From the NCBI GenBank assembly GCA_019352035.1, contig JABBNZ010000012.1, forward strand, positions 1 to 64,000: DNA of 64,000 nt. The letters are read 5' to 3'. The stretch is from Pseudomonadota bacterium (GTDB taxonomy: Bacteria; Pseudomonadota; Gammaproteobacteria; Steroidobacterales; Steroidobacteraceae). Below, piece after piece: positions 7,940 to 60,620 of this stretch (position 1 is its first letter; the number at the start of each line of letters is the position of its first letter). The translations under genes and the position numbers were made by a program. The notes under the pieces are model-generated. The model saw only the letters and a list, made by a program, of their open reading frames with translations. It was not told the DNA's origin and made no database searches.

Positions 7940-7975
7940 GATAACCGCGCCCTGCGCGGCTGTTGTAACGAACTG

Positions 7976-8620
7976 TTATTCCGGCGGCCCCGAGTGGAAC
8001 CGCAGCTGCGCATCCGGGGCCGTGGCGAGCCGGGCCTCATGCTCGGCGAGCTCCCGCAGCCGCTGCCGCCACTGCGGCGGCGCCGCCTCCTGCGCGAGCT
8101 CGAGATATTGCTCGAAGTGCCGGGCCTCCGACCGTGCGAGCTGCCCATAGAACCCGCCCACCTGCGCGGGCAGACGCGGGGCGAGCAGGCGAAAGCGCTC
8201 GCAGGAGCGAGCCTCGATCAAAGCTCCCGTCAGGAGCAGGTCGAGCTTGCGTCCGGGGTCCGCGGTGCGCAGCGCCGTTCTCAGACCCGCGGCATAGCGG
8301 CCCGGCCGCTGCCGCTCGAACGGCACCCCGAGCGTGGTCATGAGCGCCTGTACCTGCTCGAAGTGCCGCAGCTCCTCGCGCGCCAGGCGCGACAGTGCGG
8401 CGGCGAGGCGGCGGTCCTGCGGATAGGCGAACATCAGCGCGAGGGCGGTCGACGCGGCCTTCTTCTCGCACTGCGCGTGATCGTTGAGGAGCTCCCGCCA
8501 GCAGGCGGACGCCGCCTCCACCCAGGCGGGCGGTGTCGGCGCGAGCAATATGCCGGCCTCGCCGTTGCGAGGCCCCGTCCCGGCGCCCTCTGAGACCCGC
8601 GTTCTCGAGTCGACACTCAC
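7976..8620 (-). CDS. miaE: MiaE tRNA hydroxylase
   Basis: LLNDHAQCEKKAASTALALMFAYPQ, EELRHFEQVQALM, EARSCERFRLLAPRL, SEARHFEQYLELA di-iron motifs. Confidence 0.9.
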   Translation of the reverse strand: MSVDSRTRVSEGAGTGPRNGEAGILLAPTPPAWVEAASACWRELLNDHAQCEKKAASTALALMFAYPQDRRLAAALSRLAREELRHFEQVQALMTTLGVPFERQRPGRYAAGLRTALRTADPGRKLDLLLTGALIEARSCERFRLLAPRLPAQVGGFYGQLARSEARHFEQYLELAQEAAPPQWRQRLRELAEHEARLATAPDAQLRFHSGPPE

Positions 8621-8730
8621 CGGGAAGCCCCTTCGGGCCGGCTGTCGCCGTCCACAAAAGCCGCCGGAGCGTTTGAACGCCCGGCTTCGCCGGGCGGGCC
8701 CGCAGGGCCGAGGCCCATGGATGGGCCGGG

Positions 8731-8753
8731 TAAAATTGGTCCCGACAATTTTG
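8731..8753. terminator. Hairpin AAAATTG-loop-CAATTTT directly downstream of the kinase stop codon
   Basis: 8732-8738 AAAATTG pairs with 8746-8752 CAATTTT; adjacent to the stop codon at 8754-8756. Confidence 0.35.
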
Positions 8754-9638
8754 TCACACCGGCTGCAGGAATCGCTCGAGCTGCCGGTCCAGAGCCTGCG
8801 CAGCCGCGAGCGCGGTCGGAAAACGCTCGTGCGGCTCCTTGGCGAGCAGGCGCTCGAGCAGCGGCTGCAGTCCCTCGAGACCTTCGGGGAGCCGCGGCAC
8901 CGGCTCCTTGCGATGCTTGTAGATGAGCGCCATCGGGCTGTCGGCTCGATACGGCTTGCCGCCGGTCAGCATCTCGTAAAGGATCACACCGAGGCTGTAG
9001 AGATCGCTGCGCGCATCGGTCGGCTCGCCGTGCCCCTGCTCCGGACTCATGTAGTGCGGCGTGCCGAAGATCAGGCCGCGCTCGGTCAGGTCGAGATTCT
9101 GCGCCGCATCCTTGGACATACCGAAATCGATCAGCGCGATGCTGCCGTCCTCGCGCAACATGACGTTGCCGGGCTTGAGGTCGCGATGCACCACGCCCGC
9201 GGCGTGCAGCGCATCGAGGGCCCGCGCGATCTGCGCCGCCACCCGCACGGCCGAGCGCGGCGAAACCTGCGTTTTCATGCGCCGGCGCAGGTCGCCGCGG
9301 GCAAAGTATTCCATCACGAGCCAGGCGTGCTCGTCGCTGACACCGAGGTCGAAGAGCCGCACGATCCCCGGATGACGGATGCGCTGCGCGATCTCGTACT
9401 CCTGCAGGAACCTGAGAAAGGAGTCCGAGGCCTCGCCGTGCTCATGCTGGTCCCGCACCACCTTGAGGGCGACCCGCGAGCGATTCTCGAGGCGCTCGGC
9501 CAGAAAGATGTCGGCGCGCTTGCCGCTGGCCACCTGGTGCAAACGCTCATAGCCGCGGATGAAGGCGCCGCCGAACAACTGTGACTGCGGCACGGCACGC
9601 GGATCCGGGGAGGCGTCCTGGGGCGGTTCCTGGGGCAT
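8754..9638 (-). CDS. Serine/threonine protein kinase
   Basis: GVVHRDLKPGNVMLREDGSIALIDFGMSK, GTPHYMSPEQGHGEPTDARSDLYSLGVILYEMLTG. Confidence 0.93.
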   Translation of the reverse strand: MPQEPPQDASPDPRAVPQSQLFGGAFIRGYERLHQVASGKRADIFLAERLENRSRVALKVVRDQHEHGEASDSFLRFLQEYEIAQRIRHPGIVRLFDLGVSDEHAWLVMEYFARGDLRRRMKTQVSPRSAVRVAAQIARALDALHAAGVVHRDLKPGNVMLREDGSIALIDFGMSKDAAQNLDLTERGLIFGTPHYMSPEQGHGEPTDARSDLYSLGVILYEMLTGGKPYRADSPMALIYKHRKEPVPRLPEGLEGLQPLLERLLAKEPHERFPTALAAAQALDRQLERFLQPV

Positions 9639-45243: not shown

Positions 45244-45717
45244 TCACGCCAGGCGCGCCAGCAGGCTCGCCATCTCCAGCGCGGCCTCCATGGCCTCGCC
45301 GCCTTTGTTGCCGGCGGTCGTGGCCGCCCGCTCCAGGGCCTGCTCCACCGTCTCGACGGTGAGGACCCCGAAGATGACGGGCACGCCGCTCTCCAGGCTC
45401 GCGAGCTGCAGCCCGCGGGCGCACTCGCCCGAGACATACTCGAAGTGCGGCGTGTCCCCGCGAATCACGCAGCCGAGCGCCACGACCGCATCGTAGCGGC
45501 CAGACAGCGCGAGCCTGCGCGCGGCGACGGGCAGCTCGAACGCTCCCGGCACGCGCGCGATCAGCAGATCCTCGGCGGGACCGCCGCGCTCCAGCCAGGC
45601 CGCCGCGGCGCCCTTGAGGAGGCTCGCGACGATGAAGTCGTTGAACCGCGCGGCGACGATGGCCACCTTGCGCCCGCGCGTGGCGATCTCACCTTCCAGA
45701 ACACGTGGTGCGCTCAA
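45244..45717 (-). CDS. ribH: 6,7-dimethyl-8-ribityllumazine synthase
   Basis: VAIVAARFNDFIVASLLKGA, VPGAFELPVAARRLA, ALGCVIRGDTPHFEYVSGE. Confidence 0.95.
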   Translation of the reverse strand: MSAPRVLEGEIATRGRKVAIVAARFNDFIVASLLKGAAAAWLERGGPAEDLLIARVPGAFELPVAARRLALSGRYDAVVALGCVIRGDTPHFEYVSGECARGLQLASLESGVPVIFGVLTVETVEQALERAATTAGNKGGEAMEAALEMASLLARLA

Positions 45718-46904
45718 CCGTCCTCTCCGACATAGCTCTCGATCTCCAGGCCGAACGCGGAGATCCCGTGAATCTGCTTCGGTGCCGACAGCACCCGCAT
45801 CCGGCGCACACCAAGATCCTTGAGGATCTGCGCACCGATGCCAAAGGTGCGCAGTACCTCTCCATCGCGGCGCATACCCGGCGGCGGCGAGCCCGTTTCC
45901 GGCGCAGCGTCCGCAGCGTCCGGCGCGACCAGCGATCGCACCGAATCCAGCAGGTCATCCGGGGACTCGCGGTCGCGCAGGATCACGATGACGCCGTTGC
46001 CGGCACGGGCGATCCGCTCCATGGCCGCTCGCAGTGTCCATGCGAGGGGATCCGCGCGGATGCCGAGGAGGTCCCGCAGAGGGTCCACCACGTGCACGCG
46101 CACGAGAGGCGGCTCGCCGCCCTGCAGCTGCCCGCGGGTCAGCGCGAGATGCACATCCTGGCTGATGCGGTCCTCGTAGGCGTAAAGGATGAACTCCCCG
46201 AGCTCCGTCTGTACCGGCTGCGTCCTCACCCGCGCGACGGAGCGCTCGTTGCGAAGCCGGTAGCGGATGAGATCGGCGATGGTGCCGATCTTCAGGCCGT
46301 GGTGCCTGGCGAACGCCTCGAGCTGGGGCCTGCGCGCCATCGTGCCGTCATCGTTCATCACCTCGCATATGACTCCGGCGGCCTGCATGCCGGCCAGGCG
46401 GCAGAGGTCGACGGCCGCCTCCGTGTGACCGGTCCTCACCAGCACTCCGCCGCGGCGGGAGCGTAGCGGAAAGATGTGTCCCGGCCGTGCGAAATCGCTG
46501 GCCTGCGAGCGCTCGTCCGCCAGCGCGCGGATGGTCGCCGCGCGGTCGCCGGAGGAGACGCCTGTGGTCGTCCCGGCGCGCAGATCCACGGATATCGTGA
46601 AGGCCGTGCGGTGCGCTTCGCTGTTGCTCGCGACCATCTGCGGCAGGTCGAGCCGCGCGAGCCGCTCCTCCTCCATGGGCACGCAGATGATCCCGCTCGC
46701 GTGGCGGATCATGAACGCCACCGCCTCGGGGGTCGCGAGCTGCGCCGCCATGATGAGATCCCCCTCGTTCTCCCGGTCCTCGTCGTCCATGATGATGACC
46801 ATGCGCCCGGCCCTGAGATCGGCGACGATCTCCTCGACGGAATTCAGGCCCGCCGGGCCGGCCGGCGGCGCCGGCTTGCCGGAAAGAGGCAGGACTTTGG
46901 ACAT
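45714..46904 (-). CDS. ribBA: 3,4-dihydroxy-2-butanone-4-phosphate synthase / GTP cyclohydrolase II-like
   Basis: DDEDRENEGDLIMAAQLATPEAVAFMIRHASGIICV; C-terminal RibA-like domain QPVQTELGEFILYAYEDRISQDVHLAL. Confidence 0.92.
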   Translation of the reverse strand: MSKVLPLSGKPAPPAGPAGLNSVEEIVADLRAGRMVIIMDDEDRENEGDLIMAAQLATPEAVAFMIRHASGIICVPMEEERLARLDLPQMVASNSEAHRTAFTISVDLRAGTTTGVSSGDRAATIRALADERSQASDFARPGHIFPLRSRRGGVLVRTGHTEAAVDLCRLAGMQAAGVICEVMNDDGTMARRPQLEAFARHHGLKIGTIADLIRYRLRNERSVARVRTQPVQTELGEFILYAYEDRISQDVHLALTRGQLQGGEPPLVRVHVVDPLRDLLGIRADPLAWTLRAAMERIARAGNGVIVILRDRESPDDLLDSVRSLVAPDAADAAPETGSPPPGMRRDGEVLRTFGIGAQILKDLGVRRMRVLSAPKQIHGISAFGLEIESYVGEDG

Positions 46905-46927
46905 GGGGACGCCTCGAAGTAGTTGCC

Positions 46928-47095
46928 GAAAGACGCACGTTCACCCCGAATCATGAAGCGGCACGAACGCGTGACAGGCACACGGAGGTGCCCCGTCGCC
47001 GGAGGTGGCGGGCGTTGAGCCAAAAACCACGCCTTTTTTGGCTCAACGCGCGCTGGGCCGGGCAGGAGCCCGGATCCAGCGCTTCTTGATAGGGC
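46928..47095 (-). repeat. Dispersed repeat family I, copy B (medium form)
   Basis: CGTTCACCCCGAATCATGAAGCGGCACGAACGCGTGACAGGCACACGGAGGTGCC..; perfect 15-bp stem GCGTTGAGCCAAAAA/TTTTTGGCTCAACGC (47012-47026/47035-47049); ends GCCCGGATCCAGCGCTTCT. Confidence 0.9.
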
Positions 47096-47126
47096 ACCCC
47101 AGTATACCTGGGCGCCCCCTCCGGCT

Positions 47127-47651
47127 TTAGCTGCCCCGCGCCAGCAGCGGCAATACCGCCTTCTCGAGCGCCCGCGCGGAGACTCCCGCCGGCCCCTCGG
47201 CCTGCAGCTGCGCGCGCAGCACCCCCCGGGCATCGATCACGTACGTGACCGGGACCGCGACCGGCTCGCCGAAGCCATTCGCCCGCGCCCCGCTCGCCAG
47301 TGCGCCCGGATAGCTGAATTGCCGCATCACCTGCCTGACTTGGCCGTCATCCGGCGCCTGGTCGATGCTGAGGCCGAGCAGCTCGAGCCCGCGCGAGTGA
47401 TAACGGCGGTAGAACGCGTTGAGCGTCGGCATCTCCACGCGGCAGGGGGAGCACCAGGTGGCCCAGAAATTCACCAGCACGACCTTGCCGCGCAGCTTGG
47501 CGAGGTCGAACCGGTGGCCGTCGAGCTCCCGCACGATGAGGGCCGGAGCGGGTCTGCCCATCACGGGCGGCGCGCCGAGCGCGGGCATCGGTGCGCTGAG
47601 CACCGTGGCGGCGGCCAGCGCGGCGGCGAAGATGCGAGACCTCAGTGCCAT
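47127..47651 (-). CDS. TlpA-like exported thioredoxin-fold protein
   Basis: KVVLVNFWATWCSPCRVEMPTLNAFYRRYHSRGLELLGLSIDQ; signal peptide. Confidence 0.88.
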   Translation of the reverse strand: MALRSRIFAAALAAATVLSAPMPALGAPPVMGRPAPALIVRELDGHRFDLAKLRGKVVLVNFWATWCSPCRVEMPTLNAFYRRYHSRGLELLGLSIDQAPDDGQVRQVMRQFSYPGALASGARANGFGEPVAVPVTYVIDARGVLRAQLQAEGPAGVSARALEKAVLPLLARGS

Positions 47652-47713
47652 GGCAGCGCCTCCGGTGAAAGATACAGCGATCCTGCCACAGGTCGAGCGC
47701 CGCGTGGGCGGCC

Positions 47714-48733
47714 TCAGATGGGCCTAAACACCCAAACCGCCGCCGGCTGGCCCGAATGCGGTGGAACAGCCACGCACAGCTCGTCCAGGCCCGGCACGAA
47801 CTGCGACGTTCCCGAATGCGGTCCGGTGGGCTCCGTCGCTACCAGCGCGTAATGATCGGTATTGAGCTGCCGGTAGGCCTGCACGAAGCCTTGCAGGCTG
47901 GTCGTGTAGATCAGCCCTTGCGCCGCATCCAGGTACATGTCCTCGGTGGCATCCTTGCTCGGGAGACTTGCGATCACACGGCCCGTGGCGGTGTCGAGCA
48001 CATTGAACGTCGGCGGCCGGGGATCGCCCGCAAACGTGCGCGTGGCCACGAACAGTCGCCCGTGCGCCTCATCGAGGGCCATCGATGCCGGCCTGCCGGG
48101 CACTGACAGCCGCCTGACAATGCGCCGCGTATCGGTATTTACCACCGCCACCTGATCGAGCCCCGGAATGGCGGCGTACAACAGCGGCCTTCGCCGCGCC
48201 ATGACGAGTGCCGCGGCGCGATAGGCGGTGGCGATCCGCCCGACGCGCCTGCCCGTTGCCGGATCGATCAGCGCGAGCCAGCCGGGCCCGCGGTTGGAAT
48301 CAGTACCGCCGGACTCGACATAGAGGAGGCGGTGCCTCGGATCGAAAGCGATCATGTCCGCGCCGACGGAGACTCTGACCGTCGCGGCGGTCCGATAGCC
48401 CCGGCCGCTCAGAATGCGCACTACGCCGTCACGCCCGTTGGTGATCACCAGGCGATCGAACGACGGCACGAACAGCTCTCCCTGAGGTCTGTCGAAGCCG
48501 CCCGACAGGCGTCGGATGGCTCCGCCTTGGAGCGGCACCACGTACACACTCTGCTGGTCCTGGGCCGACAGGAACAGCCGGTCCGTTTTCGGATCGACCG
48601 TCATGTGGTCCCAGGTCCCGACCATGTGCGGTACGGGGATCTTGCCGGCCAGCTCGAGCGCCGGTGTCGCTGCCGCCGCAAAGCCGGGGGTCGCAATGCT
48701 TGCAGCGAACGCGAAGAGTACGAGGGCTCTCAT
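47714..48733 (-). CDS. Exported YVTN-like beta-propeller protein
   Basis: Signal peptide; GTWDHMTVDPKTDRLFLSAQDQQSVYVVPLQGG, VVNTDTRRIVRRLSVPGRPASMALDEAHGRLFVATR repeats. Confidence 0.8.
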   Translation of the reverse strand: MRALVLFAFAASIATPGFAAAATPALELAGKIPVPHMVGTWDHMTVDPKTDRLFLSAQDQQSVYVVPLQGGAIRRLSGGFDRPQGELFVPSFDRLVITNGRDGVVRILSGRGYRTAATVRVSVGADMIAFDPRHRLLYVESGGTDSNRGPGWLALIDPATGRRVGRIATAYRAAALVMARRRPLLYAAIPGLDQVAVVNTDTRRIVRRLSVPGRPASMALDEAHGRLFVATRTFAGDPRPPTFNVLDTATGRVIASLPSKDATEDMYLDAAQGLIYTTSLQGFVQAYRQLNTDHYALVATEPTGPHSGTSQFVPGLDELCVAVPPHSGQPAAVWVFRPI

Positions 48734-48752
48734 GATGAAATCTCCAAACGCG

Positions 48753-49820
48753 TTACATGGACGCGGGCAGCTTCTTCAGCTGCCTGGTCACGACGGACGG
48801 GGTGAGCGGCAGAAAGCTGCCCTCGCGCAGCACCTGCTCCTGGCCCTGGCGGCTGAGGATGTAGCGCAGAAACTCCACCACGACCGGGTCGGGCGCGATT
48901 TTCGGTCCGTCATTGATGTAGAACTTCACCGCGCGGGACAATGGATATTCGCGGTCCGCGACCTGGGCCAGGGTCGGCTCGATGTAGGGTCCCCCCGGGC
49001 CCACGGCGATGGCCACCAGCCTGGCATGGGGATTGCGGTAGCCGGCGGATGTCAGAGCGATGCCGTCCCGATCGGCGGCGACGGCGTCAACGGCGCGCTG
49101 GTAGCCGTTGATGCGCTTGCCGCCCGGCCCGGCGGCCCCGGCGAGTTGTTTCAGCGCACAGTTCCAGAGCGTGCTGCCGCGCATGACAGTCTGCGAGAAA
49201 TAGAACCACGGTGCCTCGTCGGCGGCCGGCCCGCTGTAAGGGTGCAGCGGACGGTTTTTCCACGAGCCTCCGAGCCCGAGCTGACCCCACGTGCGGATGC
49301 CGTGCGGCTCGCCCCGCGACTGCTGCGCGCCGAAGATCGCGGCGAGCTGCCTGAAGTCCAGTCGCGCGAGCGGATTGTCCCTGTTGACGAACACGCCCAG
49401 CGCCATGATCTTGTCGGGGTCGGTGTAGCTGCCGGTCAGCACGGTGACCGGGAATGGCTTCTGCCCGGCGACCTTCCGATAGGCCGCCGCCTCCATCGGC
49501 ACGATCTCGCGCGCCAGCACGCCGAGGTTGGCCCTGCCCGTGTACAGGCCCGCCATCGCGGCGCCGCTGCTGAGCAGATCGTCCCGGAACCTGACATGGG
49601 GCTGAAAGCGCTGAAATCCCTGCTCCCACTCGCGCATCATGACCTTCAGGAATCCGTGCCCCCAGCTGCGGATCGTGCCGCTCACCTGGCGGCGCGGTCG
49701 ATAGCCCGGCAGCGACTGCACGTACTGCGCCCAGGGCGGCACGGCCACCTCGTGAGAAGCCGCGCACGCAGCAGGCACGCCAAGGCAGAAGAGGATCAGA
49801 AACGTCAGTGCCGTTCGCAT
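48753..49820 (-). CDS. Secreted PstS/PBP-like substrate-binding protein 1
   Basis: YRPRRQVSGTIRSWGHG, IRTWGQLGLGGSW, REYPLSRAVKFYIND..VEFLRYILSRQGQEQVL. Confidence 0.82.
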   Translation of the reverse strand: MRTALTFLILFCLGVPAACAASHEVAVPPWAQYVQSLPGYRPRRQVSGTIRSWGHGFLKVMMREWEQGFQRFQPHVRFRDDLLSSGAAMAGLYTGRANLGVLAREIVPMEAAAYRKVAGQKPFPVTVLTGSYTDPDKIMALGVFVNRDNPLARLDFRQLAAIFGAQQSRGEPHGIRTWGQLGLGGSWKNRPLHPYSGPAADEAPWFYFSQTVMRGSTLWNCALKQLAGAAGPGGKRINGYQRAVDAVAADRDGIALTSAGYRNPHARLVAIAVGPGGPYIEPTLAQVADREYPLSRAVKFYINDGPKIAPDPVVVEFLRYILSRQGQEQVLREGSFLPLTPSVVTRQLKKLPASM

Positions 49821-51967
49821 GCGGATTCTCCGGGTCTGGCCCGCATCAGCGGAAGATAGCCGTCGCCGCCGTGAACCGCGGCCTGCCCCTTCGCGCTGAG
49901 GATGTAGCTCACGAACCTGCGGGCCTCGGACGGCGCCCCCGCGCCCGGATCGAGATAGGCGTAAACGTCACGGCCAAGCGGGTAGCAGCCCTCTCGGACG
50001 GTCGCCGCCGTGGGCAGCACATACGGGCCGGCCGCATTCACGCCGAGCGGCACCGGCTTTACCGGCCCTGCGCCGGGCGGCAGCCAGGCGATCGCCAATC
50101 CGTAAGGGTCACGCGCGAGCGCGCCCAGGATGCGGCTTCGAGTGTGGAGCACCGCCTCACTTTCGGGCGCGGCGCTCGCAACCTCGTTGATGCGCGGCCA
50201 CTCGAGCAGCGCGCTGCCTCCCAACACCGTTGCGCGCAGGAAACGCCCGGTGCCGCTCTCCGTGTCAGGCATATAGATCTCGACCGCGTGCCCCGCCCAC
50301 TTGCCGCGCACGCCCAGCTGACCCCAGGTGTGGATGCGCGGCACTCCTGGCGGCGGACGAGCCTCGATCAGTCCCTGAAGCTGCGCAAAGTCGATGCCTC
50401 GCAGCGGATTGTCGGCGTGGACGAACGCCACGAGCGCGGGCGACCTGCCCCGGCTCTCGAGACTGCCCCGCACAATCTCGACGCGCAGCGGCGGATGCCG
50501 GTAGACCCACTCGAAGGCCTTCAGCTCACTGCCGGTGGCGGCCCGGCCCATGAGAGCCACGTCCGCCTCTCCCGTGTAAAGACCCGCCATCCCGATGTCG
50601 CTGCCGGTCAGATGCAGGGCGACGCGCACATCCCGATGGCTCGCGCGAAAGCCTCTCGCCCAGCGGCGGGCAAGAGAGGCGAGCGCCGGGTTACCCCACA
50701 CCCGCAGCACCGCTTCGCCCGCGGCCGGCGCCCCCGGGCGGTCGAGGGACGGGACGGCAGGGCCGCGGATTTCAGGCGCCGCCTGCCGCGGGGGCGGCTT
50801 GCCATATGAGCAGCGTGCGGAGCCTGCGACACCACACGGCCGCGCGTCTCGAAGCTTCAGCCGCTGCTCGCGGATCTGCCGCCGCCCCAGCGGCAGATAA
50901 CCACTCTCCTCGATGAGCGCCCGCTGCCCCTGCCGGCTCAGGATGAAGCGCAGAAACTCCCGTATCGCGGGCGCGACCGGTTGGCCGGGCGCACGGTCGA
51001 TGTATGCCGGAATGATCCGCGTCAGCGGATAGCGCTCCGTGATCAGCGTCCGCGGCGTAGCGCTCACGTAGGGACCTGCGCGCGTGAAAGCGAGCTTCAG
51101 CGTCCTCACCTGCGGATTGGCGAAGCGGATGTTGGACACGGCAATGCCGTAGGGGTCGCGAGCCAGGGCCCGCAGAATCTGCAATCCCCGGTCATCGACA
51201 CCGCCTCCCGGCCGATCGAAGGTGACGAACTGGCGGATGCGCGGGTTCCAGCGATGGCTGCCTTCGAGCACCCGGCCGCGAAGGAACAGCGCGAAATCCT
51301 GGTTCACTTTCCAGAAATACGGATCGATGCGCCTGGGAGCCCACGCGCCCTTCAGTCCGAGCTGGCCCCAGGTGCGGATGTTGTGCTCCCCGCGCCCGTA
51401 CCGGGCACCGAGGATCGCGGCGAGCTGCCCGAGCGAGAGCCGCTCGATCGGATTGGTCCGATCGACGAACACCATGTGGGCATAGTCGAAGTAGTTGGTC
51501 TCGAGACTGCCGGTGGCGATCTCGATGCGCGTCGGTGCGTAGTGGCGAGCCCGCTCGAAGGCCCGCTTCCCGGCCGGGCTCAGCTCCTCGCCCAGGATGG
51601 CGAGATTGCCCGCGCCGCTGCAGAGCGCGCCGATGGCCGAGGCGGTTCCGTACATCCTGTCGACGATCCGGACACCGGGCTCGTAGCGGCGAAATTCCGC
51701 ACTCCATCGGCCGACGAGCCTGCCGAGGAAATCGTGCTCGGGACTGCCGTGGCCCCACAGGCGGATGGTGCCCGTGACCTGCGCGCGCGGCCGGTAGGAC
51801 GCCAGTGAGTCGACCACCTGCACGGCATACGGCGGCGGCGCGAATCGCGGGCCGCCGCCCAAGTCGGCGGCTTGGCCCGCGGCCGCGGCGGTCAGCGCGG
51901 CAAGCGCCAGGACGAGCTGCGGGCGAGCCCGTGCGGGCCGGCCCGCGTGCCCGCCCTGACGGCTCAT
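49805..51967 (-). CDS. Two-domain fusion of PstS/PBP-like substrate-binding proteins
   Basis: Domain 1: YRPRAQVTGTIRLWGHG..IRTWGQLGLKGAW..FLRFILSRQGQ; domain 2: AVLRVWGNPALASLARRW..IHTWGQLGVRGKW..FVSYILSAKGQ. Confidence 0.82.
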   Translation of the reverse strand: MSRQGGHAGRPARARPQLVLALAALTAAAAGQAADLGGGPRFAPPPYAVQVVDSLASYRPRAQVTGTIRLWGHGSPEHDFLGRLVGRWSAEFRRYEPGVRIVDRMYGTASAIGALCSGAGNLAILGEELSPAGKRAFERARHYAPTRIEIATGSLETNYFDYAHMVFVDRTNPIERLSLGQLAAILGARYGRGEHNIRTWGQLGLKGAWAPRRIDPYFWKVNQDFALFLRGRVLEGSHRWNPRIRQFVTFDRPGGGVDDRGLQILRALARDPYGIAVSNIRFANPQVRTLKLAFTRAGPYVSATPRTLITERYPLTRIIPAYIDRAPGQPVAPAIREFLRFILSRQGQRALIEESGYLPLGRRQIREQRLKLRDARPCGVAGSARCSYGKPPPRQAAPEIRGPAVPSLDRPGAPAAGEAVLRVWGNPALASLARRWARGFRASHRDVRVALHLTGSDIGMAGLYTGEADVALMGRAATGSELKAFEWVYRHPPLRVEIVRGSLESRGRSPALVAFVHADNPLRGIDFAQLQGLIEARPPPGVPRIHTWGQLGVRGKWAGHAVEIYMPDTESGTGRFLRATVLGGSALLEWPRINEVASAAPESEAVLHTRSRILGALARDPYGLAIAWLPPGAGPVKPVPLGVNAAGPYVLPTAATVREGCYPLGRDVYAYLDPGAGAPSEARRFVSYILSAKGQAAVHGGDGYLPLMRARPGESACERH

Positions 51968-53244
51968 CGCGTCAATTGCTCGACGGGCCTGCCGGCCTCC
52001 AGAGCATCGAGCCGCCGCGCCTGCTCGGCGGCCACCTTCGCCGTGAGCGGCAGGTATTTGCCGTCGCGCTCGACCAGCTCCTGGCCCTGCCGACTCAACA
52101 CGAAGCGGACGAACTCGTAGATCTTCCGATCGAGCGGCCGGCCCGGCTTGGCCTCCACCCAGAAGGACTGATCACCCCAGAGCGGATAGGAGCGGTTCTG
52201 TTCGGTGTCGAGAGTCAATGGAACGTACGGCCCGGCCGCGGTGCTGGCAACCGCCAGCACTTTGACCGACTTGGGCAGCTCCTCGTGGTAGCGGATGTAG
52301 CCGATGCCGCCGGGGTCCCGCGCCACGTGGTCCATGATCTGATCGCTCTCGAGATAAGTCCTGCCGTCCCGCTTGTAATTGCCGAACGCCAGCAGATTCC
52401 CGTTCCACTTATCGCTCGACATCAGCACGTCATCTGAAAACTCGAGCGCCGTCGAGTAGCGCAGGCTGAAACCGTACGTATCCACGGGGCGGTCGGTCCA
52501 CGCCCCCGTGAGGCCCACCTGGCCCCAGCGGCGGATGTTCTCCTGCGGACCGCGCGCGAACTGCGGATGCCACGTGGATCCCACCCATCCGCCGGCGCGC
52601 CGCGACCCGAAAATATCATCCAGCTGCCGCATCGTGACCCCGGTCAGGGGATTGGCGGCGTTGACGATGATGGCGAAGGAGTTCTGCCAGCCGATCACGT
52701 CGTAGGATCCGGTGACCACCGAGATATCGGTCGGCAGATATCCCTTCAGGCGCAGGTTGGACAGATCATCGTAGAACAGCGCCTGGTGTCCTATGCCGAT
52801 CTCGCCCCGGTTCTCGTACAGGCAGGGGATCGCGTTGGCGGCAGTCAGCAGGTGATAGACGATCCGGATCCCCGGCTGGTACTTCTCGAAGGCCTTCTTC
52901 CACCAGCCCCCGAGCGGCGAATCGCCGATGTAATTGTTGCCGCACACGGTGAGGGTGCCGTGCGGATGAGACCTCGGCGCGTAGCCGGGCAGACCGCTCA
53001 GGTCGAACTTCTTCGTATAGAAACGCGAGTACGCCACCGCGTGCATGCGCGCCCTGCGCTCCGCGGCCGAGCCATGCGGGAACTTCCTCGATTGCGCATT
53101 CGAGCGGTAGAGCTTCAGCCAGGGCGCGGACTGTCCGCTGGACTGTCCGCTGGACTGGGGCGCCGCGGGTGCCGGCGCGGCCAGGACGAGCGGCAGCGCC
53201 GCGATGCCGAGCAGAGACAGATGTAACTTCTTCACAAGACTCAC
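51964..53244 (-). CDS. Secreted PstS/PBP-like substrate-binding protein 3
   Basis: Signal peptide; YAPRSHPHGTLTVCGNNYIG, IRRWGQVGLTGAW, RSYPLWGDQSFWVEAKPG..FVRFVLSRQGQELV. Confidence 0.82.
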   Translation of the reverse strand: MSLVKKLHLSLLGIAALPLVLAAPAPAAPQSSGQSSGQSAPWLKLYRSNAQSRKFPHGSAAERRARMHAVAYSRFYTKKFDLSGLPGYAPRSHPHGTLTVCGNNYIGDSPLGGWWKKAFEKYQPGIRIVYHLLTAANAIPCLYENRGEIGIGHQALFYDDLSNLRLKGYLPTDISVVTGSYDVIGWQNSFAIIVNAANPLTGVTMRQLDDIFGSRRAGGWVGSTWHPQFARGPQENIRRWGQVGLTGAWTDRPVDTYGFSLRYSTALEFSDDVLMSSDKWNGNLLAFGNYKRDGRTYLESDQIMDHVARDPGGIGYIRYHEELPKSVKVLAVASTAAGPYVPLTLDTEQNRSYPLWGDQSFWVEAKPGRPLDRKIYEFVRFVLSRQGQELVERDGKYLPLTAKVAAEQARRLDALEAGRPVEQLTR

Positions 53245-53263
53245 CTCGAGGGGGATCGGCGCC

Positions 53264-54469
53264 TCAGTCGAGCTTCTTCAGCTGCTTCTTGATGTAGGAC
53301 TCGGGCAAAGGACTGTAGATGCCCTGCTTGCGGATGATCTCCTGGCCCTGCCGGCTCAGCACGTATCGGATGAACTCCCGCACCGCCGGAGTGAGCGCCC
53401 GCCCCGGCGGCTTGTTGACGTAGATGTACGCATCGCGCGTCAGCGGATAGCTCCGATTGCGCACGTTCGCGGCGGTCAGCGGGATCGCCGGCCCGTCCGC
53501 GGTCGCGGAAATCGCCAGGATCCTGATGTTGGGATAGGAATGGCACTTTGTGCCGTCCGGATTCACACACGTGCCGTCGACGTGCATGAGAGCGCCCCAG
53601 CCGATGGCGTACTTGTCCTTGCTGATGGCCGCGTACATGCGCTGGCTCCAGACCTTTCCGCCCTCGGCGTCCGCGGTGGCCTCCTTCTCCTCCACCACCT
53701 CGCGGAAGTTCGGATTCCACTTGTCCGACCAATGCATGACGTGCCGCTCGAAGCTCACCTCGAATCCGGGCGCGACGTAACCCCAGGTCTGGATCTTCTT
53801 GCGGGCCCAGCCGCCCTTCAGGCCGAGCTGCCCCCAGGTGCGGATGAGGCTCTTCGCGCTCTGCGCGTATTTGCCGGTGTAGAGGATCGCATGCTGCGGG
53901 CCACCCACCACCCAGCCGCCGGTGCGCTGGGCGCCGAAGATCTCACTCAGCTGTCGCATCGACAGATGGGTGAGCGGATTGTCCTTGTTCACCATGATGG
54001 CCCAGGCATACAGGCACCCGCGCATGTTGTAGCAGCCCGTCGCCACGGAAATTTCCGTCGGCGTATAGCCGTACGTGTTGTAGAAGGGCATCTGGTCGGT
54101 GATCTTGGCGTCATCGCCCATGGGCGCGACATCCGAAACGCCGGCGTACATCATCCCGAGCGCGCCCTCGCTCTCGGTCTGGAAGTTTCCCGAAAGCTTC
54201 GCATCCGGCTGCGCCTTCTCGAAGCCCTTCATCAGCGCCGGGATCATCCCCATCAGCGGGCTGCCGGCGATGCGCAGCGGCCCGATGATGTGGTACTCGG
54301 GCTTGTATCGAGGCACCTGACTCAGAACCGGCTCCTGCGCGTGAGCGAGCGCCGACAGCGCCAAACCGGCCAAGGCCAGCGCGAGCCCGGCCGCCCCGTG
54401 TCGCCGGGAGGGGGTGTCGCCGGCGAAGGCCGGACCGGGCACGCGGGCCGAGGAGAAGCGCTTAGTCAT
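53264..54469 (-). CDS. Secreted PstS/PBP-like substrate-binding protein 4
   Basis: ATG at 54469 (MTKRFSS); signal peptide; YKPEYHIIGPLRIAGSPLMG, IRTWGQLGLKGGW, RSYPLTRDAYIYVNKPPG..FIRYVLSRQGQEII. Confidence 0.82.
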   Translation of the reverse strand: MTKRFSSARVPGPAFAGDTPSRRHGAAGLALALAGLALSALAHAQEPVLSQVPRYKPEYHIIGPLRIAGSPLMGMIPALMKGFEKAQPDAKLSGNFQTESEGALGMMYAGVSDVAPMGDDAKITDQMPFYNTYGYTPTEISVATGCYNMRGCLYAWAIMVNKDNPLTHLSMRQLSEIFGAQRTGGWVVGGPQHAILYTGKYAQSAKSLIRTWGQLGLKGGWARKKIQTWGYVAPGFEVSFERHVMHWSDKWNPNFREVVEEKEATADAEGGKVWSQRMYAAISKDKYAIGWGALMHVDGTCVNPDGTKCHSYPNIRILAISATADGPAIPLTAANVRNRSYPLTRDAYIYVNKPPGRALTPAVREFIRYVLSRQGQEIIRKQGIYSPLPESYIKKQLKKLD

Positions 54470-54546
54470 GTTCGATGGGTCTCCAAGCTGCTGAAAGAAT
54501 CGGCGCCACGGCCGGGATTGCGCCCCGCCGCCCGAGGGTCCGCCGG

Positions 54547-56718
54547 TCAATAGAAGCTCCTGCTCAATGTCAGGGAAACGTTCCGGGGATTGCCCGGCGT
54601 GATGCGCACGGCGCTGAAGGCGCTCTGGTAGTACTGCTTGTCGAGCAGGTTCGAGACCTTGAACGAGACACTGTAGGTATCGGCGTCGTAGTAGAGGCCC
54701 GTGTCGACCGTGGTGTAGCCGGGCATGATGAAGTCGTATGCGAACGCGGCGTTCGGGAGATTGCCGACCCTCTCGGAGCGGTAGATCACTCCCAGCATCC
54801 ACCCGATGTTGCTGAAGCGGCCTGGAAGCTGGATCCGCGAGAGAATGCTCCCGCTGTTGCGCGGCGCGTTGAGCGGCATCGAGCCGACATCGGCCTTCGC
54901 GGCATTCGCAATGATGCGGGCATCGACGAGGGCGTAGTTGGCGCTGAGCTGCCACCAATTGGTGGGCCGGAAATCGAGCTCGAGCTCCGCGCCGCGGCTG
55001 CGCACGGCCCCGATCTGCTCGTAGAGGCCCGTGATGCCCACCTCCTGGATGAGGTTGACCTCCTTGATGTTGAACAGTGACACCGTCGCCGTGGCCCTGC
55101 CGCCCGTGCTGGCGAACTTGGCGCCCACCTCCTCCTGGGAGGCGGTCTGCGCCTGCAGCGTCTGACCGGGGACGACCGACTGCGCGGTGGGCGATGGCGG
55201 CACGAAGGAGGTGCTGTAACTGGCGTAGAGCGACCATTGCTCATCGGGCTGATAGATGACCCCGCCCATCGGGAGGGCGGACGTGAAGCTTCTGGACCGG
55301 GTCGGCTTCACCAGCCGCAGGTCCTTCTGTTCCTCCCGGACTTGCTGGTAACGGGCGCCGACCACTCCCTTCCAGTGCCGCGAGAATGTGAGCAGGTCCG
55401 TCGCATAGGCGCCGTACGCCTTCGCCGTCGCCCACTCGTGCGCCTGGGGCGGCTCCGTGGCCGGGGGCGTGTCGCTGTAGCCGATGACCGGATCGTAGAT
55501 ATTGATGTCGAGCAGCGGGCTCTTGAAGTCGCGGATCCGGTTGTAATCCTCGATCGTCTGCCCGTAGGTGACGCCGGCGAGCAGCCGGTGGGCGATCGGT
55601 CCGGTATGGAACAGGTCCGTGGCCGAGGTATCGATGAAGTTGATGTGGTGGTGATTGTCCTGCTGACGGTCGACGCGCTCCAGGGTCGTCAGATTCTTCA
55701 GCACCGTGCCGTTGTCGAAGCCGGTCTCATAGTCTTCCGAGTACACCGAGCGCGCGTTGAAGTCCCAGCTGAGCGAGTGGGAGAAGGCGTGATGCACGAG
55801 GAGGGTGGCCGTCTCGCCCTTCTCCATCTCCTTGTCCTGCGGATTCTGATATCGGGTGCTGATCGGCGCGATGAGCTGGCTCTTGAAGGCCGGCGCCACC
55901 AGGCCCTGGTCCCAGCTGTCATTGCCGTGGCGGAATTCGAGCAGCAGTGTCGCCTTCGTTCGGGCGGAGACGTTCCAGGTGAGGCTCGGCGCGAACATGA
56001 AGTCCTTGTCGAGCACGAAGGCTCGGAAGGACTGCTGGTTCGTATACTGCACGATGGCCCGGCCGAGGAACCGGTGATCGCCGTCCAGGGGACCGGTGGT
56101 ATCGACGATGCCCGTGTAGCCGTTCTTGCTGCCAAACGGGATGCCGTCGCCGGCGAAGGTGTTGGCGCGCAGATCCACGCTGGTCTCGTAGTGGCCCTGC
56201 GGCTTCTTGGTGATGAGATTGATGAAGCCGCCCGGCTGATTCTGACCATAGAGCACGGAGGCGGGGCCCTTCACCACCTCCACCCGCGCGATGTCGGCGG
56301 TTTCGGGTGAGGCAGTGCGTGCCGGCAGGCCCGGAAGCCCGTCCATGAGCACGGAGTTCGGATCCGTGGAGCCGCTGGTGAAGCCGCGGATCGTGATGTC
56401 GTAGCCCGAGGGACCGGCGCGCTGCACATCGGACATGTAACCGTAGAGATCGGTGAGGCGGGTCGTGTCGACCGCCTGCATGAACGCTTGGCTGTAGTTT
56501 TCGAGGGAGAACGGCACATCGCGGACCGGAACGTTCATCTTCAGGCCGCTCTTTCCGCCCGGCCGGATGAAGTTCGCGCTCACGGTGACCTGCTGCAGCT
56601 GCAGCGCCGGTGCCGCCGGGCCGGCCGCGGCGTTTTGCGCCGCGGCGACTGGCGCCAGAGCGCAGCAGGACGCCGGCCCGAGAATGAGTCCCGCAATCAG
56701 CTTGATTCTGATCGTCAT
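54547..56718 (-). CDS. TonB-dependent receptor (siderophore-receptor type)
   Basis: Plug ADIARVEVVKGPASVLYGQNQPGGFINLITKKP; beta-barrel repeats; terminal aromatic LTLSRSFY; signal peptide. Confidence 0.92.
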   Translation of the reverse strand: MTIRIKLIAGLILGPASCCALAPVAAAQNAAAGPAAPALQLQQVTVSANFIRPGGKSGLKMNVPVRDVPFSLENYSQAFMQAVDTTRLTDLYGYMSDVQRAGPSGYDITIRGFTSGSTDPNSVLMDGLPGLPARTASPETADIARVEVVKGPASVLYGQNQPGGFINLITKKPQGHYETSVDLRANTFAGDGIPFGSKNGYTGIVDTTGPLDGDHRFLGRAIVQYTNQQSFRAFVLDKDFMFAPSLTWNVSARTKATLLLEFRHGNDSWDQGLVAPAFKSQLIAPISTRYQNPQDKEMEKGETATLLVHHAFSHSLSWDFNARSVYSEDYETGFDNGTVLKNLTTLERVDRQQDNHHHINFIDTSATDLFHTGPIAHRLLAGVTYGQTIEDYNRIRDFKSPLLDINIYDPVIGYSDTPPATEPPQAHEWATAKAYGAYATDLLTFSRHWKGVVGARYQQVREEQKDLRLVKPTRSRSFTSALPMGGVIYQPDEQWSLYASYSTSFVPPSPTAQSVVPGQTLQAQTASQEEVGAKFASTGGRATATVSLFNIKEVNLIQEVGITGLYEQIGAVRSRGAELELDFRPTNWWQLSANYALVDARIIANAAKADVGSMPLNAPRNSGSILSRIQLPGRFSNIGWMLGVIYRSERVGNLPNAAFAYDFIMPGYTTVDTGLYYDADTYSVSFKVSNLLDKQYYQSAFSAVRITPGNPRNVSLTLSRSFY

Positions 56719-56990
56719 TGCGATCCCCCTGCGCGGCCTTCGATTTTTGCCGCTTCGTATACCCGCATTCTTGGCGCGGCGCGCTCCCCTGGCGATAACC
56801 CCTTCGGGCTAGGCCGCGGCCGGGCGGGCGATCCGGCCCGGGCATCGCCGCCCGCCGCCGGGGCGACGGGGTCCGCCGCCCGGCGCGATTTCAGGATTAT
56901 TTAATCTGGCCATGATGCAATGACCGCGAGCCGGATCCCGGTCGCTGACCCGGGCTTCGCGGCGAGACTGTCCATTGGGGGGGGTGGAGC

Positions 56991-57704
56991 ATGACGGCGG
57001 ATCGCGCCAACGAGGCTTCCTCGGGGCCCGCAGCCCCGGCCAAGATCATCATCGCGGATGATCATCCGCTGGTGTGCGCGGCTCTGACGCACACCCTGCG
57101 CGCGGCAATGCCTTGCGCGACGGTGCTCACGGCCGCCAGCCTGAGTGCCGTCGAAGCTGCCCTTGCAGAGCATCCCGACCTCGACCTGGCCCTCCTCGAT
57201 CTGCACATGCCCGGGGCGCGGGGATTTTCCGTGCTCCTGCTGCTTCGAGGTCAGCGCCCGGAACTGCCGGTCATCGTCGTCTCCTCCAACGACCATCCGC
57301 GCACGATTGCCCGCGCCCGGCAATTCGGCGCTGCGGGATTTCTACCAAAATCCGCCCCAATCGCGGAAATGCTGGCCGCGATCGCCAGCGTGATGGCCGG
57401 AGGGGCCTGCTTCCCCCGTCATGAGGTAATGCGCTGCGACGACGATGCGAAGCTCGCCGCGAAACTCGCGCAGCTCACACCGCAACAGATGCGCGTGCTC
57501 ATGTGCATCGCCGACGGCTTGCTCAACAAACAGATCGCGCACGAGTTGCGCCTCGCCGAAAACACCGTCAAAGTGCACGTCGCCGCCGTGCTGCACAAAC
57601 TGGGCTGCCATACCCGCACGCACGCCGCTCTGCTCGCCAAATGCCTCGAGGCTGAAGGCCCCGCGCCCCACCGCATCGTCCCCGAAGCCATCGGCGCAAG
57701 TTGA
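56991..57704 (+). CDS. LuxR/NarL-family response regulator
   Basis: IIIADDHPLVCAALTHTLR, LALLDLHMPGARGF, LTPQQMRVLMCIADGLLNKQIAHELRLAENTVKVHVAAVLHKLG. Confidence 0.93.
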   Translation: MTADRANEASSGPAAPAKIIIADDHPLVCAALTHTLRAAMPCATVLTAASLSAVEAALAEHPDLDLALLDLHMPGARGFSVLLLLRGQRPELPVIVVSSNDHPRTIARARQFGAAGFLPKSAPIAEMLAAIASVMAGGACFPRHEVMRCDDDAKLAAKLAQLTPQQMRVLMCIADGLLNKQIAHELRLAENTVKVHVAAVLHKLGCHTRTHAALLAKCLEAEGPAPHRIVPEAIGAS

Positions 57705-57742
57705 GGCCGGCAAAGCGCCTCCTCTTGATCGAGGCTCCGAGC

Positions 57743-59923
57743 TCAAACGCGCGACGCGCTGCGCGTCAGCATATGCGCAACCGCCGCCCGAAGCTTCGAT
57801 GGACTGGCCGGCTTTGCGAGAAAGCCCCACCCGTTCGCCTGAATTTTCTGGCGCACCGCCGGATCCCGCTCGGCCGAGACGACCAATACCGGCACCTCGG
57901 CACCCCACATGCGGAACAATTCGGGCACCCACTCGGGCCCGGTGCCGTCCGGCAGCCGGTAATCCAGCAACAGCAGGTCCGGCGCCTGCGCATCCTCGGC
58001 CGCGACCCGCAGCGCCTCCTCCCCGCTGGAGGCCAGCACGACCTCGCACCCCCATCCGGTCAGGAGGCCCTGCAGGCTCTCACGTACACGAGGATCGTCC
58101 TCGACCGACCAGATGCGGCGGCCCCGCAGCGGCATTGAGTCATCATGCATCCGGGCCTGCGCGCGGCTCGGCTGTGGATCGCGCGATGCAAGCACTTTCC
58201 CCCTCGCCGCCGCTTTGACCAGCGGCACCTCGACGAAGAACACACTGCCCAAGCCGCGCCAGGAGCGCAGGCCGATCCGGTGCCCCAGGCGCTTCGCGAC
58301 CCTCTCCACGATTGCGAGTCCGAGACCGGCGCCGCCCCCGGCCGGCTGACCGGAGTCCAGTCGCTGAAACTCGAGAAAGATCCGGCGATGATGCTCCGGT
58401 GCGATGCCCGGACCGCTGTCCCAGACCTCGATCCGCAGCGACCCGCCGGCACGGCGGCATCCCATGAGAACACGGCCGCGGCGACTGTAGCGTACTGCGT
58501 TGGAAAGGTAGTTTTGCAGGATGCGTCGCAGCAATGCCTCGTCAGAGTGGATCACCGCGCCGCACCGCATCACGCGCAACCGGATTCCGCGGGCACTCGC
58601 AATGATGCCGAACTCCCGCCCGAGGGTCTCGAGCAACGTGTGCAGCTCGAAATCACGCTCATGTACCTCGAATGTGCCCGACTCGAGCCGCGAAATGTCG
58701 AGCAGGGTCGAGAGGATCTCATCCTCCGCCTCGAGCGCGCTGTCGATGCCACTCAGCACCTCCCTGTCTGCTGGTGACGTCAGACGCGCACGCGCGGCAT
58801 CTACGAACATACGCGCAGCATTGAGAGGCTGCATGAGATCATGGACCGCGGCGGCGACGAAGCTCGTCTTCGACCGGTTGGCCTGCTCGGCTTCCGCTCT
58901 CGCAGCTTCGAGCGCACGGGTGCTCCGAGCGATGCGCCGTGCGAACCCGCGCGCAACCAGCGCCGAGATCCCCGTCACGGCCAACGTGGTCAGGCCCAGC
59001 AGCAGCCACGCATAGCGGTTCGCCTGCGACACCGCCGCCATGCTCTCGGCCTGCTGTTGTTGCGCGACGACGATCCAGCCAAAGTCTGTATGGCGAATTT
59101 GGGCGATCCTGGCGGAGCCCCTGAATCGGTAATGATAAAAGCCGTCGCCGCGTTGAGCGGCGGCGTACGCCGGACGGCTGCGAAAGTTGCGCAGCCTGCT
59201 CAGCATCGCCACACCCCGGTCCGCGATCAGCAGACCCCGGTTGGTCATGAGGAAGGCGTGACCCGTGCGTCCAAGCCGCGCGGACGTCACCGCTTGCGTG
59301 ACATGGTCGAGGGTCGCGGCCTCGATCAGCATGCCCTCGAGCTTGCCGCCGGGTGCCTTGATGGGGACGGCCAGCAGCAACGCCGGAAGATGTGACGTGC
59401 GCCCGATCTGGATCTCCACGCCGTAGGGCCTGCCGACCAATAATTCCCTGAAGTACTCCCTGTCGCCATACCAGTTCGGGCGGCGGCCGTCGCTTCGCGC
59501 GACGTTCCAACCCGTCAGATTCACCGTATGGATCAGGTAAGCCCAAGGAAGCTGGGCGCTCAGACTCTTGATGGCGCGCTGCTGCAGCCGGGCATTCATG
59601 GAGCGCATCGACGCCTCGCCCGCGGCGAGCTGGAGAACCGAGAGGTTCAGTCGAATCCAGTCATCGACCTGCTGAACCGCTCTGTCCGCGAAGAGCTGCA
59701 GCCGCTGGCGCGCCTCGACCTCCCCGTTGTTGATCATCCGCTGCCGTTCGAGCTGCCAAAACGCGGTGAGCGGCAGCAGTGCGACCAGGAGCAGCGCGAT
59801 CAGCAGGCGCGGGAAGATGCCCGCACCGAGCCGCCAAAGCCCTCGGCGGGGGCCGCCGCCGCCCTCCCCGGCTCCGCTCACGGCGGCACGATCGATCGTG
59901 GACTTGGAACCGAGAAGAGTCAT
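57743..59923 (-). CDS. Hybrid sensor histidine kinase (Cache-like sensor, HisKA, HATPase, C-terminal REC)
   Basis: NWYGDREYFRELLVGRPYGVEIQIGR sensor; SKTSFVAAAVHDLMQPLNAARMFVDAARARL H-box; VWDSGPGIAPEHHRRIFLEFQR; DLLLLDYRLPDGTGPEW. Confidence 0.9.
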   Translation of the reverse strand: MTLLGSKSTIDRAAVSGAGEGGGGPRRGLWRLGAGIFPRLLIALLLVALLPLTAFWQLERQRMINNGEVEARQRLQLFADRAVQQVDDWIRLNLSVLQLAAGEASMRSMNARLQQRAIKSLSAQLPWAYLIHTVNLTGWNVARSDGRRPNWYGDREYFRELLVGRPYGVEIQIGRTSHLPALLLAVPIKAPGGKLEGMLIEAATLDHVTQAVTSARLGRTGHAFLMTNRGLLIADRGVAMLSRLRNFRSRPAYAAAQRGDGFYHYRFRGSARIAQIRHTDFGWIVVAQQQQAESMAAVSQANRYAWLLLGLTTLAVTGISALVARGFARRIARSTRALEAARAEAEQANRSKTSFVAAAVHDLMQPLNAARMFVDAARARLTSPADREVLSGIDSALEAEDEILSTLLDISRLESGTFEVHERDFELHTLLETLGREFGIIASARGIRLRVMRCGAVIHSDEALLRRILQNYLSNAVRYSRRGRVLMGCRRAGGSLRIEVWDSGPGIAPEHHRRIFLEFQRLDSGQPAGGGAGLGLAIVERVAKRLGHRIGLRSWRGLGSVFFVEVPLVKAAARGKVLASRDPQPSRAQARMHDDSMPLRGRRIWSVEDDPRVRESLQGLLTGWGCEVVLASSGEEALRVAAEDAQAPDLLLLDYRLPDGTGPEWVPELFRMWGAEVPVLVVSAERDPAVRQKIQANGWGFLAKPASPSKLRAAVAHMLTRSASRV

Positions 59924-60005
59924 TGAGTCGATCTTGCTCGCTCCCGGACCGGTCTGCTCGGTCGCCAAGTATCTTGGGCGAAAGACCCGTGTCGCAGTCC
60001 CTGGC

Positions 60006-60620
60006 TCACCGCGGCTGTTGCAGCGAAGCAGCCTCCCCCAGAAGCCGCTCGACATATCGGGCGATCTGGTCGATCTCGATGTTGACCCGAGTACCGAGCC
60101 GGAGGGCTCCGAGCGTGGTCACTTCCTGGGTGTGGGGGATGAGGTTGACGCCGAACGTGGCACCCTGGACTTCGTTCACCGTGAGACTCACGCCGTCGAG
60201 GGTGACGGAGCCTTTGCGGGCGATGTAGCGGGCCAAGGCGGGCGGCGCGGCGATCTCGATTCGGGTGGAGCGCGCATCGCCGCTGATCGCGGCAATCCCG
60301 CCCACGCCGTCCACGTGACCGGAAACCAGATGCCCGCCAAGGGGATCGCCCGCCTTGAGCGACGGCTCGAGATTGACCGGCGAGCCGGGTGTCAGATCAC
60401 CGAGCGTCGTCAGCGAGAGGGTCTCGCGAGACACGTCCGCGGCGAACGTGCGATCGCGCAGCTCGACTGCCGTGAGGCAACAGCCCTGCACACAGATGCT
60501 GTCGCCGACGTTCATTCCAGATGAGTCGAGTCTATCGAAAGCGATCAGCAGCCGGTCATCTCCACCGCGAGCCTCACGACTCAACACCCTGCCGACGTCT
60601 TGAACGATGCCTGTGAACAT
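60006..60620 (-). CDS. ribE: Riboflavin synthase alpha subunit
   Basis: MFTGIVQDVGRVLS, GCCLTAVEL, GGHLVSGHVDGVG, TLDGVSLTVNEV. Confidence 0.96.
   Translation of the reverse strand: MFTGIVQDVGRVLSREARGGDDRLLIAFDRLDSSGMNVGDSICVQGCCLTAVELRDRTFAADVSRETLSLTTLGDLTPGSPVNLEPSLKAGDPLGGHLVSGHVDGVGGIAAISGDARSTRIEIAAPPALARYIARKGSVTLDGVSLTVNEVQGATFGVNLIPHTQEVTTLGALRLGTRVNIEIDQIARYVERLLGEAASLQQPR

Follow-up and report, generated by a model that had tools for sequence, protein, structure and literature searches.

What might a TonB receptor and a run of PstS-like binding proteins do together when no ATP-binding cassette (ABC) transporter is encoded beside them? The question is raised by a minus-strand block (positions 47127-56718) in the window, the first 64 kb of contig JABBNZ010000012.1 from a Steroidobacteraceae bacterium (assembly GCA_019352035.1); all coordinates of the block are within this window. 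Seven same-strand genes encode a TonB receptor (TonB-dependent transporter, TBDT), four putative periplasmic binding proteins (PBP1 to PBP4) with five PstS-like domains among them, a beta-propeller and a TlpA-like thioredoxin, and our gene calls and family searches agree with the first-pass annotation on these genes, their coordinates, their 4- and 16-bp overlaps and the number of domains. That annotation proposed that the PBPs are not ABC-transporter subunits and serve as capture partners of the receptor, somewhat like SusD with SusC. We put at roughly 50% the probability that the block exemplifies an envelope module that recurs in a patchy distribution and imports carboxylates or metal-carboxylates as nutrients, in which PstS-fold proteins would hand their ligands to symporters. 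The recurrent link to symporters makes this model more specific than the earlier one, in that it places a periplasmic hand-off at an inner-membrane symporter.

By their profile scores, the four PBPs read as distant PstS relatives. PBP1, PBP3 and PBP4 exceed the PF12849 cut-off of 27 bits and PBP2 falls slightly below it at 26.0 bits, but none reaches the 206.6-bit cut-off of TIGR02136 ('PstS family'), which matches all four at 56-113 bits. The fold is that of a PstS-type periplasmic binding protein, with 4OMB, annotated as a phosphate-binding protein, as the nearest solved sequence; AlphaFold models PBP1 with moderate confidence (mean predicted local distance difference test score, pLDDT, 73.7, weak at residues 212-253). 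The N-terminal export signals claimed for all PBPs are plausible for each, as read by eye. When 127 domains were aligned to 4OMB and scored for the phosphate SGT motif, the motif was present in 13 and lost in 114; one of the five domains in the window retains it.

The pst genes lie elsewhere. We find no PstA- or PstB-like open reading frame (ORF) in the 64 kb, in line with the earlier statement that the window encodes no such permease or ATPase, and the only pst locus of the host genome is on contig C201, separate from the block and accompanied by phoU- and phoBR-like genes. Twelve genomes reached through related loci hold 9-96 PBP matches each (these are profile matches, and some genes are perhaps counted in pieces), whereas pstC gives at most one match over cut-off per genome in the 14 genomes searched, on other contigs than the PBPs; neighbourhood analysis likewise finds no pst genes adjacent to the PBPs of relatives. 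The extreme case is G515 (loci L037-L046 and L089-L100), an Opitutaceae metagenome-assembled genome (MAG) of about 3.0 Mb with 96 matches to the PBP1 profile, in arrays and singly, in which a pstC search gave no match. On pst linkage, paralogue counts and motif loss, the PBPs are not phosphate-ABC subunits, and that candidate role was rejected. Ordinary phosphate scavenging, in which the extra PstS copies serve a distant pstCAB, is barely credible: the PstS fold, the similarity to 4OMB and the one SGT-bearing domain in the window are what one would expect of it, but the motif is lost from most domains, the paralogues far exceed pstC, and G515 lacks a pstC match altogether.

Further paralogues in the host genome lie on contigs C34 (FecI-FecR-TBDT-PBP), C115 (PepSY with three PBPs) and C20. 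The genes directly upstream of the C115 cluster look like those for malate synthase and isocitrate lyase (L011:3577-7802), an order repeated in L103. Beside TBDT-PBP loci of the C34 type is an exported protein of ~500 residues with no Pfam or NCBIfam match (L012:7770-9281), with likely relatives in L050, L052 and L053.

PBP1 belongs to an orthologous subfamily that crosses phyla at 42-85% identity (A1), and a FastTree tree, a quick method that leaves some long branches, groups PBP1, PBP2, the first domain of PBP3 (PBP3a) and PBP4 each across phyla. A PBP1 scan of 85,488 species genomes returned 18 loci, labelled Steroidobacteraceae, Gammaproteobacteria, Betaproteobacteria, Deltaproteobacteria, Paraburkholderia, Eremiobacterota, Opitutae and Sphingomonadales; in relatives, ORF calls came from a simple script based on GC position, no gene finder being used. 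The order TBDT-PBP1-PBP2-PBP4-propeller is found again in other genomes, and the block is therefore not a chance arrangement, which bears out the suggestion that related TBDT/PstS neighbourhoods exist elsewhere. Full PBP1 is nonetheless rare, being present in 3 of 121 genomes sampled from the window's family, in the host alone among 387 Gammaproteobacteria, and in 6/150, 1/399 and 2/401 genomes around Opitutaceae, Paraburkholderia and Sphingomonadales, respectively; this patchy distribution would fit horizontal transfer. A plasmid search returned only relatives at <=36% identity, the best match being a region of Novosphingobium pSA1 that is unannotated in its record.

PstS-like domains also occur in other arrangements. 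Two single ORFs, L015:12348-16070 (1240 aa) and L022:2171-5773 (1200 aa), each contain three full PstS-like domains and a partial fourth, and L026:2464-4647 fuses an NMT1/THI5-type binding domain to a PstS-like domain in one polypeptide, with similar long ORFs in other Opitutae arrays. A plasmid of the Gram-positive Arthrobacter sp. Hiyo8 carries two PstS-like relatives with no obvious signal sequence (L036:2914-3923 and 7971-8996), one of them adjoining YVTN propeller ORFs.

Linkage to the receptor is frequent. Excluding G515, a TBDT lies within 5 kb of 29 of 38 PBP loci and within 300 bp on the same strand of 26, where some of the 38 belong to the same array and contig ends cut some of the loci without a TBDT. 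The TBDT is thus the commonest partner of PBP arrays, not a required one: the partnership proposed in the first-pass annotation holds as a recurrent linkage but not as an obligatory one, since G515 has arrays with no TBDT within 5 kb. The SusD-like part of that proposal is not supported. Surface capture is weakened by these TBDT-free arrays and by the scarcity of lipobox-like signals, which a pattern test, not a dedicated predictor, detects in 7 of 225 PBP ORFs; the PstS-type fold is itself periplasmic.

Genes for secondary carboxylate symporters of four families, identified by Pfam, stand beside the arrays: SDF/DctA (G108, L029, G629 and G1308), CitMHS (G079, G080, G587, G629, G1308 and Novosphingobium pSA1), DASS (G540, G511 and G587) and 2HCT (G585 and contig C27 of G515). 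SDF, DASS and 2HCT carriers are elevator-type transporters, and CitMHS is presumed to be one. The best case of coupling between a solute-binding protein (SBP) gene and a symporter gene comes from the window's own family, where in G108 the TGA of a dctA-type SDF gene overlaps the ATG of a PBP1 gene by 4 bp (ATGA, L025 positions 2698-2701). In G629, examined once the symporter idea was on record, an SDF gene lies inside the array, with CitMHS further on. G1308 and contig C27 of G515 were fetched after the symporter idea had been written down, and both had symporters: G1308 encodes an SDF carrier, a two-component system and an SBP, with a CitMHS gene ending 63 bp ahead of a TBDT and PBP1 array, and on C27 a 2HCT gene adjoins a TBDT, and two PBP genes follow about 6 kb further on. 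Genes for RraA-type aldolases recur in Opitutaceae arrays. Together these loci provide PstS-like candidates beside four symporter families, including one overlapping gene pair.

These associations suggest a relay. The siderophore-type TonB receptor would bring into the periplasm a ligand that is most likely a di- or tricarboxylate or a metal-carboxylate chelate; diverged PstS-fold proteins, mostly without the phosphate motif, would bind related ligands there and pass them to SDF/DctA, DASS, CitMHS or 2HCT symporters in the inner membrane, with no ABC permease involved. A two-component system, or FecIR in other loci, would control expression, and PepSY-type reductases in some loci would release metal; the FecIR and PepSY reductase genes fit a metal complex as the ligand. 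We infer the ligand, the hand-off and the metal release. For the window, the model requires a symporter encoded elsewhere in the genome. If true, the model adds a periplasmic relay to TonB-dependent uptake, and it suggests that many proteins best matched as 'phosphate-binding' do something else.

A number of observations weigh against this reading. The window insert contains no symporter gene and no overlap of the kind seen in L025; the rib-site loci of the closest relatives contain none as far as seen, and the host genome gives one CitMHS match, on another contig, and no SDF match. A TBDT is found within 5 kb of 0 of the 22 loci examined in G515, and in Paraburkholderia piptadeniae (L024) ABC-type genes, recognized by eye and by a PstB-like match, stand beside the array instead. 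Since porins let C4-dicarboxylates and citrate through, the ligand of a TBDT has to be a larger or scarcer one. On the supporting side, symporter genes of PF03600 and PF00375 are enriched near the arrays, with 10 within 15 kb of PBP loci in 25 genomes where 1.1 would be expected; this enrichment is not a clean test, however, as most of the genomes suggested the idea, and both the locus borders and the G515 territory were set manually. MAG contigs that break off at the array account for many of the loci, and single loci may sit on chimeric contigs, though the pattern repeats in assemblies that are independent of one another, among them that of G585, a single contig of 4.15 Mb.

The receptor brings in a somewhat unlikely but substantial alternative, in which the system takes up metallophores only: the TBDT would import a metal chelate, the PBPs would hold the chelate or apo-ligand, a PepSY reductase would free the metal, and the symporters would bring in the same carboxylates independently of the PBPs. 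The window TBDT scores 265.7 bits with TIGR01783 (TonB-siderophor), above the curated cut-off of 223.5, and 37.6 bits with the SusC-type model TIGR04056, below its cut-off of 368.25. Its nearest solved structures by sequence are siderophore and metallophore receptors, namely the enantio-pyochelin receptor 3QLB, CntO, FoxA and FhuA; it resembles FecA only distantly. FecI-FecR adjoins TBDT-PBP in L012, L051, L052, L053 and L060, and several arrays contain PepSY_TM genes, with the L034 copy fused to a reductase NAD-binding domain and placed beside a 2Fe-2S protein. All of this suits metallophore uptake, but such a role leaves the SDF/PBP1 overlap, the SDF gene within the G629 array and the RraA aldolases unexplained, and the window insert carries neither PepSY nor FecIR.

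Two-component genes flank many arrays, and TBDT-free arrays in G515 adjoin response-regulator genes and very long ORFs that may encode sensor kinases. An arrangement of this kind would be expected if the PBPs were periplasmic ligand sensors for two-component systems, with the TBDT as a regulated target and no transport partner. We consider this unlikely: one recognized kinase against well over 20 PBPs at the G585 locus makes one-to-one sensing look improbable, and the same-strand coupling of TBDT and symporter genes suggests transport. The aldolases point in yet another direction, as RraA-like aldolases act in protocatechuate 4,5-cleavage, and the system might take up larger, lignin-type aromatic acids in place of aliphatic carboxylates. 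A TBDT for a lignin-derived aromatic acid does exist (DdvT of Sphingobium SYK-6; PMC6874591), to which the receptor would be analogous. This is very unlikely nevertheless, as the symporters identified belong to families associated chiefly with aliphatic di- and tricarboxylates, and no ring-cleavage genes were noticed beside the arrays, which were not scanned systematically for them.

The block is part of an insert of about 13 kb (window 46905-60005) between ribE and ribBA, flanked by glyA-nrdR-ribD-ribE and, at the opposite end, by ribBA-ribH-nusB. In two genomes of the same genus, G679 (L074) and G672 (L079), ribE directly adjoins ribBA, so that about 13 kb was gained in this genome or lost in those; near ribBA, G675 carries a fragment of a PstS-like array. 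Among loci L074-L084, some members of the genus have nothing between the two genes and others have different, unrelated genes there, and the site is thus variable.

Within the insert, the gaps between the non-overlapping genes of the block are 77, 19, 19 and 62 bp, and by the gene calls the PBP2 stop and PBP3 start share an ATGA. No intrinsic terminator-like site was found on the minus strand within the block, which is compatible with a single transcript, no proof of one. The insert also holds a LuxR-type regulator and a dCache hybrid kinase, both left out of the first-pass annotation; the real start of the kinase gene probably lies downstream of the ORF start. A LuxR regulator is also divergent in L015 and L016, and a TlpA-like gene occupies the same place in L015 and L022 only. 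The propeller gives weak matches to YncE/PQQ-propeller models. A YncE-type propeller, together with XoxJ (PMC10875860), prompted us to consider a lanthanide/PQQ-dehydrogenase role, which was set aside: no such dehydrogenase was noticed beside the arrays, again with no systematic scan.

Table 1. Genes of the block and its surroundings, with positions in the 64-kb window.
Feature	Coordinates	Strand	Description
ribBA	45714..46904	-	Downstream border of insert; outside the system
TlpA/ResA-like thioredoxin	47127..47651	-	Exported; AhpC-TSA/ResA-like match
Beta-propeller	47714..48733	-	Exported; weakly YncE/PQQ-propeller-like; PBP-linked in relatives too
PBP4	48753..49820	-	PstS-like exported binding protein; nearest solved sequence 4OMB; SGT absent
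PBP3	49805..51967	-	Single polypeptide, two PstS-like domains; SGT absent in first (PBP3a), present in second; overlaps PBP4 by 16 bp
PBP2	51964..53244	-	PstS-like exported binding protein; SGT absent; overlaps PBP3 by 4 bp
PBP1	53264..54469	-	PstS-like exported binding protein; SGT absent; ATG 54469, stop 53264
TonB receptor (TBDT)	54547..56718	-	Siderophore type, TIGR01783
LuxR-type response regulator	56991..57704	+	Divergent from TBDT
Hybrid histidine kinase	57743..60055	-	dCache_1 sensor domain; ORF start overlaps ribE
ribE	60006..60620	-	Upstream border of insert

A domain of 125 residues recurs in exported proteins of these loci (L013:1892-2791, L034:13049-16027 and L106:1974-4508), where it occurs singly, in two copies or, in two cases (L034 and L106), joined to the N-terminus of a TBDT. 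The members scanned have no Pfam or NCBIfam match. Its predicted structure is confident (pLDDT 89.5), and Foldseek finds weak similarity to ligand-binding domains of the GAF and IclR types (best E 1.5e-4, TM about 0.5).

Our literature search, which left most subscription journals outside its coverage, found no published description of this arrangement, which shares single features with several known systems. The binding-protein fold is that of PstSCAB, but here there is no linkage to PstC, PstA or PstB and the phosphate motif is mostly lost. As in SusCD of Bacteroidota, a TonB receptor gene stands beside a binding-protein gene; the binding proteins are, however, PstS-like and not SusD-type, with few lipobox signals, and the TBDT is of siderophore type. 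Ferric citrate uptake by FecIR-FecA offers the metal-carboxylate idea and the FecI-FecR-TBDT order of the C34-type loci, whereas here PstS-like proteins take the place of the FecBCDE ABC system and the window TBDT is only distantly FecA-like. E. coli YncD (PqqU)/YncE likewise combines a TBDT with a YncE-type propeller, but that pair has no PBPs, and the propeller similarity here is weak.

The closest parallels concern binding proteins that outnumber or lack their usual permeases. The 9-96 PBP matches against at most one pstC over cut-off per relative amount to an orphan SBP expansion, and resemble the orphan TTT solute-binding (Bug) expansions, such as the 434 genes in Rhodoplanes (PMC5994714), in having many periplasmic binding proteins, few membrane partners and regulatory genes nearby; they differ in binding-protein family, in orthologous subfamilies kept across phyla and in the tie to TBDTs. 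In the TAXI-GltS system of Bordetella pertussis, the binding-protein and symporter genes overlap and a hand-off is proposed (PMC12344293). Shared with it are a binding protein without its usual permease, a gene overlap with a sodium symporter gene and an elevator-type partner; here, however, the binding proteins are PstS-like, arrayed and TonB-linked, the partners are SDF, DASS, CitMHS and 2HCT and not GltS, and the overlap occurs in one related locus, not in the window. We propose, tentatively and with some doubt, that these loci may represent a new envelope-transport class beyond TRAP/TTT/TAXI-GltS, in which a TonB receptor would supply tandem PstS-fold proteins, and these in turn would serve carboxylate symporters of the elevator type from several families.

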